Shown one piece after another: positions 50,643-57,475 of a stretch of DNA of 64,000 nt. The notes under the pieces are model-generated. The model was given only the letters and a program-made list of their open reading frames with translations, was not told the origin of the DNA and did no database searches. How positions within the stretch are numbered: position 1 is the stretch's first letter; every line of letters begins with the position of its first letter. Both the position numbers and the translations under genes were made by a program. Source of the DNA: Shewanella putrefaciens (GTDB taxonomy: Bacteria > Pseudomonadota > Gammaproteobacteria > Enterobacterales > Shewanellaceae); contig NZ_CP066370.1 of NCBI RefSeq assembly GCF_016406325.1, positions 3,224,001 through 3,288,000 on the forward strand, read 5' to 3'.

Positions 50643-51680
50643 TTAATTGATTAGCTCAGTCGGCCAGCCATAGCGATCCAAGTAAACTTTTAGATTTTTT
50701 GGCCGATATTGGGGGTCTCGCTCCCAGCGGATTTTCACTGAATGGTGCAGTAACACAGGAACAGTCGAAGGATCCAGTGGCCGCAAGTACGCCTGCTTTA
50801 TCCGATAAAAACTGCGCCGTGAGTCATGTAAAGTCGCGAGCGGATTAGGATGTAAACTTGCCGTTAAATGTGGCTCTAGGCTTAAATTAAATTTCTGCGC
50901 CTCGGATATCATCCACAACAGTGCAATATCCGACAGCAATGAGCCGTCTTTATCAGGTTTATAACTGCCGCCAATATTGCTATGGGCACCCGCAAACCAC
51001 ACTTGCTGCATGTCCATATTGTCGCGTAGTTGCCAAATGGTCGGCTCAAAATCACTGCGGTGTTCATCTATGGCTAAGGCATGACGGGCAACGCGCACAT
51101 TGCGGCCAATTTTAGTATCGTAAAACTCGTCTTTATCTTCGAACAACCCTAAAAATGAAATAGGGATCCCCATAGCACCCACGGTATCCCACACACCAAC
51201 AAACTTGATTTCCCGAGATTCATGACTGTATCTCGCTCTAAACTCGAGGGATTTTTCACCATCAGGCGCAAAGGGCGCACTGCTTTTTTTATAGTGGTCG
51301 AAAGCTTGTTGAATCAACGCCGCATCGGGACGTTTGAGTATGCCGCAGTTATTAATCAAGCCACACAGGCAACGCACTGTGTAAGCACCACGACTAAAGC
51401 CAAAGAGGTAAATCTCATCGCCGGGGGAATAGTTTTGCACTATATAGCGATAACCATCCATGATGTTTTTATGTAAACCGCGCCCTGTCGCACCACCGAT
51501 GGTTTGATCGTAATAGGAACCCACACCCCAATCATAAAATACCTGCTGGGGTTTGCCGTCACTGGCCAAGGGGCTAATCGCCCGCGCGAGGCGCAGCACA
51601 TTGGTTGGGAAATCGACCTTAAGATCTTTCTCGGGTCGATTCCACGTGCCGTCGGCACAAATCACAATACGTTTATTCAT
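50643..51680 (-). CDS. DUF2235 alpha/beta-hydrolase (phospholipase/T6SS-effector-like fold)
   Basis: A 345-residue protein of the DUF2235 family. IVICADGTWNRPEKD at the N-terminus, nucleophile elbow LFGFSRGAYTVRCLCGLI (GxSxG, about residues 91-108), a FVGVWDTVGA segment, and WFAGAHSNIGGSY with the likely catalytic His. Family members include T6SS Tle1 lipases, but no secretion motif or immunity gene is visible here, so it may be a housekeeping hydrolase. It lies directly upstream of btuF, 16 bp apart on the same strand. Confidence 0.85.
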   Translation of the reverse strand: MNKRIVICADGTWNRPEKDLKVDFPTNVLRLARAISPLASDGKPQQVFYDWGVGSYYDQTIGGATGRGLHKNIMDGYRYIVQNYSPGDEIYLFGFSRGAYTVRCLCGLINNCGILKRPDAALIQQAFDHYKKSSAPFAPDGEKSLEFRARYSHESREIKFVGVWDTVGAMGIPISFLGLFEDKDEFYDTKIGRNVRVARHALAIDEHRSDFEPTIWQLRDNMDMQQVWFAGAHSNIGGSYKPDKDGSLLSDIALLWMISEAQKFNLSLEPHLTASLHPNPLATLHDSRRSFYRIKQAYLRPLDPSTVPVLLHHSVKIRWERDPQYRPKNLKVYLDRYGWPTELIN

Positions 51681-52050
51681 CGCATCATCCTTGAGTCACT
51701 GATGCCCAATCTCACAGGTAAAAAGCTATCGATACAGACGCTAACGGGTTTTACCAAGGAATAACAGCCTCGCTATCCTTGTTTGCTGGCGATTCAAGGC
51801 GTTAAAAGCTCATCTTGCTTTACATGCTAACATCGCGGCAAAAAACCTATAGTGACATAAAAACCTAAGCTGACAAATTAGAACAATAAGATGCCGCTAC
51901 AGTTTGCATATGTAATGTTCGTTTAACAAGCGTTGGACAGAGGAGCGTTAAATATAGAAGGGCTAATATCACTAAATGACTTATTGCTTAGTTATTAAAT
52001 GCAGGCTCCTATTGAAGGGCGAACCATGGTATTTGCTCGACGACACGGTG

Positions 52051-52122
52051 ATGGCTCACCTATTTAGCATTGACGTAGCCTGTAGACTTAAAAAGCTTAT
52101 GCTGCACGCTTTGGGACAAAAG
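52051..52122. repeat. Degenerate interspersed repeat, copy 1
   Basis: Begins ATGGCTCACC, passes GACGTAGCCTGTAGACTTAAAA and ends TTTGGGACAAAAGTGC. It resembles copy 2 at 52419-52492 by eye over about 70 bp with several substitutions. Confidence 0.7.
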
Positions 52123-52418: not shown

Positions 52419-52492
52419 CATGGCTCACCGTTTTGGCTTTGGCGTAACCTGTAGATTTAAAAGACATACGCAACACAGTTTTGGGACAAAAG
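52419..52492. repeat. Degenerate interspersed repeat, copy 2
   Basis: Begins ATGGCTCACC, passes GGCGTAACCTGTAGATTTAAAA and ends TTTTGGGACAAAAGCG. Same orientation as copy 1. It lies directly before the first attC-like site. Confidence 0.7.
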
Positions 52493-52508
52493 CGTGATAG
52501 CTCCTTTG

Positions 52509-52643
52509 CTCTAACTTGTCAGTTTCGGATTAAAATTTCTATGGAGATAACGCTTTGCTAATGGGCAGCCGAAACGCAGTGTAGGCTGTCCCGTGGAGGC
52601 CACGCTTTTTGTGGCCGGAACGAAATTTAGCAACTTGTTATAC
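52509..52643 (-). repeat. attC-like integron recombination site 1
   Basis: Box pair CTCTAAC (52509-52515) and GTTATAC (52637-52643), i.e. RYYYAAC ... GTTRRRY-like. The inner arms pair (AAATTTC / GAAATTT) around a long imperfect palindrome (CCACGC...GTGGCC). It lies just after the stop of the minus-strand cassette gene at 52651, as expected for an attC. Confidence 0.7.
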
Positions 52644-52650
52644 GTCATTT

Positions 52651-53025
52651 TCAAAGGCAATCAATTCCTAAGGAACATACTGTGTATATGCCAATTAAAG
52701 GGAAAAACGCCGTATAAATAGCTGAGAAAACACCTGCAAACCAATGAATAAAGAGTGATGAAGGTTTCTTAAAAAAGCTGGTTGCAACAAGCATTAATAT
52801 AATCGGACTCCCATACATAATAATGTTGCTCAAAGCATACTTAATTGGGGGCTGCACTATTCCATAGGGAGAACTTTCGAAGAAATACCCATATGCACCA
52901 AGCAGAATTACTACAAACAATACTATAAAACTGACAGGAATTGCTCCCATTCTCATTCGTAACCTAAAAATCAATTCAGTAGCCGCGAAAAGAAGTAAGA
53001 AAATAGTGATTAATATCGTGGCCAA
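52651..53025 (-). CDS. Cassette-borne small membrane protein, unknown
   Basis: A 124-residue protein with four hydrophobic helices (ILITIFLLLFAATELIF, IPVSFIVLFVVILLGAYGYF, IIMYGSPIILMLVATSFF, HWFAGVFSAIYTAFFPLIGI) and no recognised family. It is flanked by two attC-like sites and is in the cassette orientation, so it is an integron gene cassette. AT-rich composition compared with the flanking core genes. Confidence 0.6.
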   Translation of the reverse strand: MATILITIFLLLFAATELIFRLRMRMGAIPVSFIVLFVVILLGAYGYFFESSPYGIVQPPIKYALSNIIMYGSPIILMLVATSFFKKPSSLFIHWFAGVFSAIYTAFFPLIGIYTVCSLGIDCL

Positions 53026-53040
53026 GATACTCTCCTTGAC

Positions 53041-53113
53041 GTATAACTACCAAAGCAGCGGCGCGCGTTAGCGCGTCCAGCCCGCAGGGCGATGCTGCCT
53101 TTGCTTGTTAGTG
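53041..53113 (-). repeat. attC-like integron recombination site 2
   Basis: Boxes GTATAAC (53041-53047) and GTTAGTG (53107-53113). Arms CAAAG.CAGC and GCTGC.CTTTG pair with a one-base offset, as the extrahelical base of attC requires. The centre is a GC-rich hairpin (GGCGCGCG / GCGCG). The stop codon of the upstream minus-strand cassette gene lies within the box. Confidence 0.82.
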
Positions 53114-53557
53114 GTTTTTCACAAATAGCTCGCATTTATAGCCGCCTTCCTCACTTTCTAGGTTTTCACTTACGTAGAGGGTATATTTCCCTGGCTTAGA
53201 AAATATCGTCTCATTACCGCCTTTGTTATCCCACCGATACCCAGTTGTGGTTGGAGCTATTTCAATTTCCTTTGCGCTTTCAGACTGTTGAGAAGACATT
53301 AAAGACTTCATGGTTGCTTGCGGTGAGCCAACTACCAAAAATAGCCATAAGTTTTCGTCGTGCCTATATAAGGCAAGCTCCTTACCGTGGTGCCCACTAA
53401 GATTAACTCGAAGAACATCGCCACGGCTTAACATGCATGGAGTGCAAGAAACCATTTCATCTGATTCTATCCAGATAGCTTCTGGAGCCTCTGATTCCTC
53501 AGCAATTCCATGCGAGCTAATAAAAACAAAGATAAAAAACAGGACTCGACTCATCAT
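53108..53557 (-). CDS. Cassette-borne secreted protein, unknown
   Basis: A 149-residue protein with a signal peptide (about 1-18, ending GIAEE). The mature part has a CTPCMLSRGD segment, a GHHGKELALYRHDENLW stretch and a GYKCELF end, suggesting a small beta-rich domain with possible disulphides. No family recognised. It is framed by attC-like sites 2 and 3 on the minus strand, the expected form of a gene cassette. Confidence 0.65.
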   Translation of the reverse strand: MMSRVLFFIFVFISSHGIAEESEAPEAIWIESDEMVSCTPCMLSRGDVLRVNLSGHHGKELALYRHDENLWLFLVVGSPQATMKSLMSSQQSESAKEIEIAPTTTGYRWDNKGGNETIFSKPGKYTLYVSENLESEEGGYKCELFVKNH

Positions 53558-53560
53558 TCA

Positions 53561-53620
53561 CCCTAACGTCTTAGTATTTATGCGCTGCGCTGTTTGCAGG
53601 GCATAAATCGCTTGTTGGAC
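53561..53620 (-). repeat. attC-like integron recombination site 3
   Basis: Boxes CCCTAAC (53561-53567) and GTTGGAC (53614-53620, matching GTTRRRY). The inner arms TATTTATGC and GCATAAAT pair around a short loop. A total length of 60 bp fits attC. It abuts the left end of the IS91-family element. Confidence 0.82.
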
Positions 53621-53898
53621 TTGGCCGCTGCCACATCCGTGTAAATGGGTATGAATGATGCTATAGGAATTTGCTTTTTTGCGGTAGCGGTTTTTTATAC
53701 AGTTTGATGGGTAATCACTTGATATCGTTTTAGCTTTCTCATTCTTGCAAGCTCACTTTCGACTGATTATTGACCTTGGTTGACAGCATTTGGCCTCACA
53801 TTCAGGCTGACACTCACACCCTATCCCCTCATCGGCTTGCGCCCATAAGGCTGGCTGCTTTTCGCTGTCGGTCATTTCGCTACGTCTTGAGGGAGGGG

Positions 53899-55015
53899 TT
53901 ATCCTGACAGGCATATTGGCTGACTTTGGTTGTTAATCATCACTAATCCCTGCTGTCTTATCAGCCCAATAAACTGTAAATGACCTAACTGGCATTGCGG
54001 ACATGACCACAAACAGTCCTCCTTAACTAAAGGACTCACCAATACCACCTGCGGCTTACGTAATTGCGGCTGGATAAGCGCGAGCTTTTTACGGCGGCAA
54101 GCGTTGGCGAGAAAACCAAAATGTCTCACTCGCATCAGCCCTTTGGGCAATACATGCAATAAGTAACGGCGGATAAACTCATCACAACTTAGCCGCATTT
54201 GCTTATGCTGCTGACCGTCACGATAGTCCTTGTAGTAAAAACTGACATGCTCTGCGGTGACGTCGGCAATTCTTGATTCATGCAGCATGCCTTTACGGGT
54301 ATAACGCCCGAGGTATTCCACCACGGTTTCGGCGCGGCTCAGACACGCTTTGCTGTAAACACCACGGTTTTGCCATTAAGGTGTCAGCCGCAGGGATAGC
54401 CAGCTCATGTTGTCGCAGCGCCCGTAATAACTTGGCCCGATATACGGTGGACAAGGCTCTAACCGGAAACAGATAATCCGTTTTCACGCCATGCCAATCT
54501 CCCGCTGACGTCAGCACCCCACCCGGGATTAAGCAATGCAAGTGAATATGCTGACTCAAGGTTTGCCCCCACGTGTGCAGCACCATAGTGCAACCCAATT
54601 GACCCTGAAGGTGTTTTCGCTTCATACCAAACTGCGCAAGCGTCTGCCACACCGACTCAAACAGGGCGCTGTATAGCGGCTTGGCAGCGTAGTGCGCCAA
54701 GATGTTCAACTCGTGGGGTAAGGTAAAGACCAAATGGAAATAGCGGCAAGGCAAGACTTGCGCCTGTTGCGCAGCAATCCATGCTTGTGTCTGCCTTCCC
54801 TGGCAACGAGGACAATGCCGGTCACCACAGGAGCAAAATACCTGCTGCTCATACTGGCAAGTATCACAACGCCAATGCTGTATGCCTAAGGTTTGCGTGC
54901 GACACTGCTGAATATGCTGGCAGACTAAGGCTTGCTGTTCGGTCAGTTTATGCTGCTGTTGGTAGTGGGCTAAGTGCTGATGAAGGATATCGCTTAAATG
55001 GTAGGTGGTTGCCAT
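53899..55015 (-). pseudogene. IS91-family transposase (HUH/Y1), frameshifted
   Basis: The N-terminal frame (240 codons from the ATG at 55015) has the zinc-binding region CDTCQYEQQVFCSCGDRHCPRCQG (split) and the HUH motif QHIHLHCLIPGG. It then loses frame near 54345-54360 and ends at 54293. The C-terminal part (to 53899) continues in another frame with VEYLGRYTRKG (likely catalytic Tyr), YKDYRDGQQH and FIRRYLLHVLPKGLMRVRHFGF. A single-base indel accounts for this, so the transposase is probably inactive. Confidence 0.85.
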
Positions 55016-55857
55016 TGCATCCCCCCAAGACTTGCTAGCAAGTCACACCCTTGATGACCTAATTCCGGTGACCAATGCAAGTAGCGCTCGGTGGATTTAA
55101 TACTGTGATGACCAAGTTGAGCCTGTAATTGATGAAGTGGCATACCCGCTTGTAATTGATGGGTCGCATAAGCATGCCTTAGGCTGTGTGGACTGCAAGG
55201 CTTAGTAATACCCGCTAAGCGGGCCGACTTCGCTAACGCTTTACGAAAGGTCGACTCATGAAGCGGATAAACCACATCATGATAGGTCGAGGCAAACAAC
55301 CATTCGACGGGATGATACGCTTGCCAATACTGACGCAACAGGGTGAGTAAAGTCGGTGAGAGTATCACCCAGCGGTCGCAGGCCCCCTTGCCTTGACACA
55401 CTTTGAGCAACTGCCGCTGCCCATCGATATCAGCAACCTTAATATGGGTTAACTCACTGACGCGTAAACCACAACCATAACACAGCGCCAACATGGCGCG
55501 TTGTTTCAGGTTTTGACAGTGGTACAGCAGTGCCGCGATATCTTGGCAACTAAGAAGTTGCGGCAGCTTGTGCGGACGTTTAGGTAAACTCAGCTGAACC
55601 GTAAAGTCGCGCCCTAGGACATGTTCATAGAAAAAATGAATGCCATTAAGCTGTAACTTTAAGGTGGCTCTGGAATGATGCCGCTCAAGATTTAAGTAAC
55701 GGAAATAAGCCGTAAGCTGCTCATCCGTAATGTTATCGAGCGGTTGGTTGGCATACTGCTGCAGTTGGGTGATGGCATACAAATAAGCGTTACGCGTACG
55801 GGCCGAGTAACCACGTAAACGAATCTCATCATGGAATTGTTGCAGAAGTGATGACAT
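54994..55857 (-). CDS. Tyrosine recombinase of the IS91-family element
   Basis: A 287-residue phage-type integrase. N-terminal SAM-like DNA-binding domain (LRGYSARTRNAYLYAITQLQ), then the catalytic domain with CYGCGLRVSELTHIK (Arg I), SPHSLRHAYATHQLQ (His-x-x-Arg), LGHHSIKSTERYLH (His and Tyr). The start is the ATG at 55857 with GGAGG 7 bases upstream; a longer frame to 55986 reaches outside the element. It overlaps the transposase gene by 22 bp. It appears intact. Confidence 0.88.
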   Translation of the reverse strand: MSSLLQQFHDEIRLRGYSARTRNAYLYAITQLQQYANQPLDNITDEQLTAYFRYLNLERHHSRATLKLQLNGIHFFYEHVLGRDFTVQLSLPKRPHKLPQLLSCQDIAALLYHCQNLKQRAMLALCYGCGLRVSELTHIKVADIDGQRQLLKVCQGKGACDRWVILSPTLLTLLRQYWQAYHPVEWLFASTYHDVVYPLHESTFRKALAKSARLAGITKPCSPHSLRHAYATHQLQAGMPLHQLQAQLGHHSIKSTERYLHWSPELGHQGCDLLASLGGMQWQPPTI

Positions 55858-55939
55858 GGTAGACCTCCTAGGTGAGGGATTATCCCTAGGAGTAAGTGTG
55901 GAACAGTGGTTCGCTTTGGGCTCCGCGCAGCGGCTTAGT

Positions 55940-56605
55940 TCAACAGAGACATTTACCGACAGTGTTATCCCCATCAGAAATCTCACTAGTACTAAATGAA
56001 CTTGATGGCCGCGATAGGCTAATAATAGAACTACTCTATGGTAGTGGACTAAGAGTTTCAGAATGCCTCAGGTTACGTATCCAAGATATTGATATTGAGA
56101 GCGCTTCGCTGACCGTTAGAGACGGTAAAGGACATAAAGATAGGCAAACCATCCTCAGCCATAGATGCGCAGAAAAGCTCACTACATATATTGAAAAGGC
56201 TATTAAAATTCAACAGAATGATAACCAGCAAGGGATAGGTCCATCTCTGCCAAATGCATTAGAACGTAAGTATCCCAATGCGTTTAGGCAACACGGGTGG
56301 ATGTTTATTTTCCCTTCCAGCACAACCTGTATCAATCCTTATACAGGAACACTTTGCAGGCACCATTTACATTAAGTGTTATTCGTAAAGCACTCGGGAA
56401 TTCCGTGCGTAATATTCAAATGAATAAACGCGTCACCTGCCATACGTTTAGGCATAGCTTCGCAACCCATTTACTTCAAGCTAGTCGTGATATAAGAAGT
56501 GTTCAAGAGTTACTGGGCCACAATGACGTTAGTACCACACAAATTTATACACATGTACTTGGCCAACATTTTGCTGGGACAACTAGCCCGTTAGACACAT
56601 TATAA
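55940..56605 (+). pseudogene. Integron integrase IntI, 5'-truncated and frameshifted
   Basis: From QRHLPTVLSPSEI onward the protein matches IntI. GLRVSECLRLRIQDID has the first catalytic Arg, and [25 protein letters not shown] is the extra IntI-specific patch that separates integron integrases from other tyrosine recombinases. [31 protein letters not shown] carry the remaining catalytic residues. The N-terminal ~100 residues are replaced by the IS91-family element, and a one-base deletion near 56372-56375 shifts the frame. It is divergent from the cassettes, as in integrons. Non-functional as read. Confidence 0.88.
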
Positions 56606-56740: not shown

Positions 56741-56860
56741 GTGAAGATTGGCATTGTTGCACCCGTGATCGTTGGCGGCTTGGCCGCCATTTACTATCTG
56801 CCCAATATGGATATAAAAATATCGCTTTATGATGATAACAACACGCTCAGTTTAATAATC
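56741..56860 (+). pseudogene. Possible N-terminal remnant of an FAD/NAD-binding oxidoreductase
   Basis: A short frame from GTG reads MKIGIVAPVIVGGLAAIYYL then NMDIKISLYDDNN. This recalls the beta-alpha-beta dinucleotide fold at the start of flavin amine-oxidase-like proteins (MKIAIVGTGISGL-type), but the Gly spacing is damaged. After about 40 codons the frame runs antisense through cobO. It may be a relic cut off by the integron region; weak evidence. Confidence 0.3.
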
Positions 56861-57475
56861 AAAACCTTGCTGTGCCTTGATACCCGATTCGAATGCGTGT
56901 TTCAACGGCTGCACTTCGCTGACAGTATCAGCCAGCTCGATAATCGCGCGATGACAAGCACGGCCCGTAATAATCACATGCTGCATGGGTGGACGATTTT
57001 TAAGTGCGCTAAGCACACGCTCCACATCTAAATAGTGATAGCTCACCATATAGGTGAGTTCATCGAGCATCACGCAATCGATGCTCTCATCTTGCAGCAG
57101 CTTTTCGGCGGCTTCCCAAGCGAGTACAGCGGCGGCGGTATCTTTTTCTTTATCTTGGGTTTCCCAAGTAAAACCTGTGCCCATTACATGAAACTCAACC
57201 CCTGCGCCTTCGAGTAAATTGCGCTCACCGCACTCCCAAGTGCCTTTGATAAATTGCACTACCGCGGCTTTTTTACCGTGACCGACGGCGCGGGCAACAG
57301 TGCCAAAACCTGAGGTCGATTTGCCTTTACCGTTACCGGTTAACACCAGCAGAATCCCCTTCTCCTCTTGGGCGGCGGCAATTTTAGCATCAACATCTGC
57401 TTTCACTTTCTGTTGGCGAGCCTTGTGGCGTTCGGCCTTGATTTGCGCTTGTTCGTTGTCGTTCTGTGCTGTCAT
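56852..57475 (-). CDS. cobO: Cob(I)yrinic acid a,c-diamide adenosyltransferase
   Basis: A 207-residue ATP:corrinoid adenosyltransferase (BtuR/CobO/CobA type). P-loop [19 protein letters not shown] (about residues 45-63), then [23 protein letters not shown], and [16 protein letters not shown] (about 135-150). It attaches the 5'-deoxyadenosyl group to cobalt. The ATG overlaps the cobQ stop (ATGA), so it is the last gene of the leftward cob run. It is also called btuR when used for salvage. Confidence 0.95.

Follow-up and report, generated by a model that had tools for sequence, protein, structure and literature searches.

The window analysed here is a stretch of 64,000 nucleotides from Shewanella putrefaciens (contig NZ_CP066370.1, positions 3,224,001 to 3,288,000) and it contains, in a region bounded by cobO (56852-57475) and a Tle1-like gene (50643-51680, PF09994), the remains of an integron whose integrase gene, intI, is broken. 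Read along the minus strand from cobO, the order is the intI remnant (itself on the plus strand), an element of the IS91 family of insertion sequences (IS), the cassette genes hypB and hypA, and a conserved right end (RE). The coordinates are collected in Table 1, in which, as in the text, G and L numbers stand for the genomes and loci that were compared. cobO and the Tle1-like gene lie less than 200 bp apart in L001, L002, L006, L007 and L009. L010 carries at the same cobO locus a cassette array that includes hypA (96.5% DNA identity across 52484-53051) and has no intI match. A further Shewanella stretch, L005 (10560-12600), has at this locus an IS-end remnant (88.8% over 197 bp) together with other sequence, and likewise lacks an intI match. 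Beyond the right end of the array the window holds a 65-nt direct repeat, 75% identical (52051-52115 and 52420-52484). Searches of Pfam, NCBIfam, PADLOC and PHROG with hypA returned no matches, and the best PHROG match of hypB is a weak one (E 0.0062) to a family of unknown function.

Table 1. Features of the integron remnant, in window coordinates.
Feature	Position	Strand	Evidence and remarks
Right end (RE)	52479..52550	-	Conserved, after last attC of related arrays; at 17 of 29 attI loci elsewhere an attC is followed by similar sequence
attC of cassette hypA (site 1)	52545..52643	-	Covariance model 49.5 bits, E 8.9e-10; DNA fold z -3.29
hypA cassette gene, 124 amino acids (aa)	52651..53025	-	96.8% aa identical in L010, same cobO locus
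attC of cassette hypB (site 2)	53041..53113	-	Covariance model 23.3 bits, E 0.0023; fold z -2.43
hypB cassette gene, 149 aa, function unknown	53108..53557	-	17 homologues, including Rheinheimera, Vibrio metschnikovii and Microbulbifer
attC-like terminus of IS91-family element (site 3)	53561..53620	-	Same end in 7 of 7 IS copies; fold z -3.99
IS91-family element in first-'cassette' position, G^TT to G^TT	53567..55943	-	Both ends common to copies in G000, G061 and G036
IS91 transposase, C-terminal piece, frameshifted	53899..54324	-	NF033538, 114 bits
IS91 transposase, N-terminal piece	54293..55015	-	NF033538, 259 bits
Tyrosine recombinase gene of the IS, frame open	54994..55857	-	PF00589, NF040815
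Deletion junction TGTT (minus strand), IS against intI	55942..55945		G061 has TGTT at both counterparts, where attI meets the IS and within its intact intI
Remaining C-terminal two thirds of intI, with a frameshift near 56372	55942..56605	+	TIGR02249; 97% aa to intact G061 IntI

The original prediction, made from the letters of the sequence, was of a decayed chromosomal integron with an integrase recognisable by an ALERKYPNAF patch, which had lost its N-terminus to an IS91-family element and a single base near 56372. Each of these points is borne out. Both pieces of intI have TIGR02249 as their best NCBIfam match (159.6 and 114.1 bits, against 109.9 and 94.5 for the next best family), each piece scoring below the family cut-off of 265, which is set for the whole protein. 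The ALERKYPNAF patch can be read directly in the remnant, and the remnant is 97% identical at the protein level to the intact IntI of G061 (L097). Alignment with five intact close relatives shows that one base present in all five is missing after 56372-56374. The N-terminal part of intI and attI are deleted at 55942, where the IS now adjoins the remnant, while G061 retains attI beside its intI. The failure of the original prediction to see an attI was correct, as none was found in this region of the window; with neither an intact intI nor an attI next to it, the locus is not a complete integron. A search of the rest of this genome (4,386,330 bp, a single contig) found no IntI scoring above the family cut-off. 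At the 5' break stands a TGTT that the IS/attI boundary and the intact intI have in common, and approximately 590 bp of the G061 arrangement are therefore missing. The damage is thus a deletion, with one end placed exactly where cassette and attI would meet.

Three attC-like sites had also been proposed, and two of them stand. Trained on 12 terminal attC sites, all outside the window, a covariance model recovered site 1, with its start corrected to 52545, and site 2. The score of site 1 is not independent, because its L010 orthologue was in the training set, whereas that of site 2 is. The third-ranked match in the window lies on the plus strand at 51921-51953 (E 0.087). In the whole genome, where 150 of 1157 candidates from a first look were scored, there were 11 matches at E<=0.5. 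Two home-made attC scanners did not raise sites 1 and 2 above shuffled sequence; these gapless and fold-based scanners were too insensitive or too noisy, and were dropped in favour of the covariance model. A strict home-made scan singled out site 3, which folds well. With two attC sites (1 and 2) accompanied by cassette genes, and no functional integrase, the locus is a cluster of attC sites lacking integrase (CALIN), for which at least two attC are needed.

Site 3 is a different matter, since the same attC-like hairpin, followed by GTTA, ends all seven copies of the IS that were compared (the one in the window, one more in the same genome, four in G061 and one in G036). The third attC thus belongs to the IS and not to a lost cassette. 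The element is assigned to the IS91 family by the Y2 transposase profiles NF033538 (259 and 114 bits) and PF04986, its gene being frameshifted. In five of the seven copies the IS meets the attI block exactly at AATAAAATG^TT, the exceptions being L122 and the window copy, so that in these five the 5' end of the IS lies at the attI G^TT as that of a gene cassette does. All seven have TGTT at one end, including L122, which is not at attI. The two copies in the S. putrefaciens genome share the same transposase break, and three of the four G061 copies have a single open frame of 381 codons; the broken copy was therefore duplicated, whether as a cassette, by transposase acting in trans, or otherwise. 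In three genomes, eight copies of attI (L134, L198, L199, L210, L212, L213, L214 and L217) run directly into the final bases of the IS end, and these fusions look like footprints of IS loss, as if by recombination near AAAC/GCGCA. Partial matches to the IS, covering no more than 15% of its length, occur on seven Shewanella plasmids. Downstream of the second copy in the S. putrefaciens genome there is a match to a group II intron (RF00029, 47 bits, L119:5946-6015).

The junction in the window fits an action of IntI on its own gene, a deletion driven by the adjacent IS and a deletion through microhomology. Recombination by IntI between the attI core and a secondary GTTTAGT site within intI is a tentative possibility: the junction is at G^TT, and the intact relative has at that point GTTTAGT, which agrees with GTTRRRY at six of seven positions. 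The four shared bases would suit other mechanisms too, however, and broken integrase genes elsewhere speak against a general habit of this kind. Of 20 loci with a partial or broken intI, eight were examined; one (L155) is an insertion, and the other seven, all truncated or internally deleted, show no break at GTT, though for the more distant ones the ends of homology are approximate. Self-deletion at GTT as a common fate of intI was accordingly rejected. Action of one end of the IS on a nearby TGTT target is conceivable, but we would not count on it either. It draws on the TGTT present at that end in every IS copy, even the one away from attI, and on the existence of the footprints of IS loss, but the transposase is broken in both copies of this genome and would have had to act before it was broken, or in trans. 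Ordinary microhomology-mediated deletion seems rather unlikely; it would account for the four nucleotides common to both sides, but one end of the deletion falls exactly on a cassette boundary.

Whichever mechanism operated, the locus would be an integrase-dead copy of the Shewanella integron of the SonIntIA type. G061 and L010 together point to an ancestral order of intI, attI, the IS91-family element as first cassette, hypB, hypA and the right end. A deletion from the attI/IS boundary to the TGTT inside intI would have removed attI and the first third of the gene, and the loss of one base, before or after this deletion, would have broken the remainder. As hypB and hypA still have their attC sites, it is plausible that an IntI supplied in trans could excise and mobilise them, as the original prediction had envisaged. 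The near identity of the remnant to the intact G061 gene likens the locus to the SonIntIA integron of Shewanella oneidensis MR-1, as does the G061 attI, which is one base off the sequence quoted in PMC9892861, a difference that the accessible text of that paper also states for the MR-1 attI. Unlike the MR-1 integron, the window locus has lost attI and the N-terminus of intI, and the rest of the gene is frameshifted.

The attI block found upstream of cassettes, which includes the Shewanella attI quoted in PMC9892861, is dispersed through the genus. The published 28-mer, with up to three mismatches, has 207 matches in 44 of 114 genomes, and at least five matches in 20 of them; a control with the reversed pattern gave none in the same 114 genomes. 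A 154-base attI query has matches at E<=1e-3 in 77 of 117 genomes. The copies lie on chromosomes, plasmids and a prophage, with up to 16 in a genome that was read. The S. putrefaciens genome itself has three copies of at least 150 bits (at 2356989, 3481620 and 3103030) and a fourth, weak match of 53.6 bits. We read 72 copies in eight genomes (16 in G024, 13 in G036, 11 in G070, 10 in G039, nine in G015, seven in G013 and three each in G061 and the S. putrefaciens genome), leaving out attI matches under about 98 bits, for part of the set, and the weak L136. Among the matches listed, an intI above the cut-off adjoins four of the 72 copies, and 68 are without one; in G015 the attI-linked intI matches the profile from position 20 onward only. 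The original view, an integron turning into a CALIN, caught in transition, is right for this locus in that the integrase has been lost, but it leaves out that attI without intI is a common state here. The comparison with relatives that it had proposed found both intI and attI kept in G061 and no intI match in L010 at the cobO locus. A second attI variant is dispersed at six places in G007, a genome with an intI above the cut-off.

These attI copies mark a sharp boundary. When the 59 of 72 that end canonically are compared in pairs, their mean identity over the last 60 bases up to G^TT is 0.85-0.90, a value that drops to 0.52 for the following five bases and to 0.27-0.29 further on. What follows has the character of cassettes. 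The covariance search was extended to 32 loci, in 29 of which an attI could be aligned, and gave 58 attC matches at E<=1. Every one of them is on the cassette strand and downstream of attI, and 46 do not come from the training set. At least one attC match was present at 25 of the 29 attI loci, while three IS copies and the weak L136 had none, and a right end follows an attC at 17 of the 29 as well as in the window. A match in L010 at 20537, 9 kb from attI, is probably due to chance. Rfam searches at gathering scores of ten loci gave one group II intron match and nothing else.

The sequence in front of attI is shared too, as the integrase-less copies have a common head. In the 1.7-2.4 kb upstream of 24 such copies no IntI match was found at E<=1e-3 with 30 checked IntI queries. 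A LexA-like 16-mer lies at -276 to -279 in 19 of these 24 (11-13 of 16 positions, at least 12 in 17 of them), and at -276/-277 in all four intI-linked copies (13-15 of 16), in which the longest intI frame begins at -280 to -298. Because the attI copies are related, this is positional conservation and not a series of independent events. The placement of the site suggests, for the integrase-less units, an ancestor with intI from which the gene was lost while part of its operator remained.

The possibility of traffic between attI sites arises from G013, in which one and the same 331-bp cassette, 96-100% identical, begins at the G^TT of four of the seven attI sites, including the intI-linked one, with the sequences diverging after GTTA. 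This cassette (L127, L138, L139 and L141) has no open stretch longer than 56 codons in any of the six frames, and a search of Rfam with L139, from its attI through the first cassette, gave no match at E<=1. In G061 the IS occupies the first position at all three attI sites. Aside from the IS in G061, the suggestion of cassette exchange between attI copies comes from the sequences of G013 alone.

The explanation that we favour overall, and hold to be fairly likely, is that the window locus is an integrase-dead SonIntIA-type integron lying amid genus-wide non-autonomous integrons served by one IntI. Each of these would have the common head, with its LexA-like site placed as it is before intI, followed by an attI, a few cassettes and often a fixed right end, but no integrase, and one IntI per cell would load and reshuffle all copies, as the cassette repeated at four attI sites of a single genome would indicate. 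On the stronger form of this proposal, in which one IntI acting in trans supplies different cassettes to integrase-deleted copies that have the common head and an attI of their own, so that the genome as a whole is a distributed integron, we are evenly divided. The alternative is that the dispersed attI are the inert wreckage of complete integrons that lost intI, with no use in trans. This is the less probable account but it has evidence behind it: 16 of 30 genomes with a strong attI (best E<=1e-35) have no IntI-like match better than 1e-30 among the matches listed, G024, G015, G039 and G070, as well as G036 with an intI above the cut-off and 13 attI sites, show no sharing of first cassettes, and the LexA-like site is degenerate. 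It sits poorly with the common head of the integrase-less copies, with the absence of an upstream intI remnant from all 24 loci searched, and with the four identically occupied attI sites of G013.

A number of other observations weigh against the explanation that we favour. No first cassette is shared within any of the other six genomes read, with or without IntI. The covariance model gives no attC match within the shared 331-bp cassette of G013, and site 3 of the window is not among its 18 matches at E<=10. The canonical end is absent in 13 of the 72 attI copies, eight of which are hybrids of attI and the IS end. In 300 shuffled sequences the LexA consensus was reached at 11 or more of 16 positions somewhere in the segment in 77, and at 12 or more in 21. 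A sigma-70-like promoter was not found in the one head examined (L143 1400-2100), and the seven intI genes broken elsewhere than at GTT count on this side as well. Finally, a search of 114 genomes for an empty attI-RE site gave three matches, none of them clearly empty.

As to how the units spread, we considered transposons with terminal inverted repeats and rejected them: of 13 oriented sequences a long pair was present only in L010 (103 bp), with L123 having 26 bp, and the 103-bp repeat of L010 occurs independently 8-28 times per genome. Miniature inverted-repeat transposable elements (MITEs) are non-autonomous derivatives that outnumber their autonomous parent; unlike them, the units here have no demonstrated transposase-type ends, and the function that they share would be that of IntI acting on attI. 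An empty-site comparison with approximately 1.5 kb on each side of L147 matched the flank in 12 of 14 genomes without a clean insertion point; attI was present in two (G093 and G024), a partial left end in four (G097, G015, G061 and G109), a 50-base match in G045 and none of these in five. The flank of L139 was dropped from the comparison as a dispersed repeat. The units sit among intergenic repeats, that in the flank of L139 (600-1200) having up to 48 matches in one genome, and such flanking repeats may matter for the spread of attI units.

The attI block is not confined to Shewanella. It was matched in 21 of 72,556 plasmid records, 13 of Shewanella and eight of others, and in one of 5,426 Escherichia coli genomes. 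In the five stretches that were read, four from plasmids (L236, L238, L239 and L240) and one from an E. coli chromosome (L237), no IntI match was found at E<=1e-3, L236 having a different annotated site-specific integrase. All ten attC matches in these stretches lie downstream of attI and on its strand. In L236 (5001-5569), from an IncC plasmid of Enterobacter hormaechei, attI is followed by a predicted fosG (fosfomycin-resistance) gene with attC matches behind it, and no IntI match occurs within 5 kb. The presence of the same attI block on this plasmid means that the question extends past Shewanella.

Integrase-less arrays are themselves frequent in this genus: PMC9229058 describes CALINs in 59 genomes, single attC sites lacking integrase (SALINs) numbering 115 in 41 genomes, and a cassette structure formed by an IS91-like element. 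The arrays described here resemble them in having attC-bearing cassettes without an integrase, but the accessible text of that report does not tie attI to them, whereas many arrays here possess an attI of their own, as well as the common head and a right end. The CALIN of prophage M16-3 (PMC9892861) is likewise an integrase-less array that starts with the same attI, but it concerns one prophage and not a genus-wide set. The IS agrees with IS91-family elements reported from arrays in combining an IS91-like element with attC, and differs in the attC-like terminus of all seven copies compared and the exact placement of five of them at attI. It has been proposed that CALINs are degraded integrons, and attI sites other than those of class 1 are not searched for by IntegronFinder (PMC9024848). 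We found no report of genus-wide dispersed attI in the literature searched, outside which most subscription papers fell. The scale and structure of the dispersed attI seem new, while Shewanella CALINs and one prophage CALIN with attI had already been published.

Integrase-less arrays, if their attI still works, would stay open to insertion by any compatible IntI, and on the stronger form of the proposal an integrase that enters the cell could reach every such platform of a genome at the same time. Seen in terms of dispersed attI, the scattering of chromosomal cassettes in Shewanella becomes a testable question.

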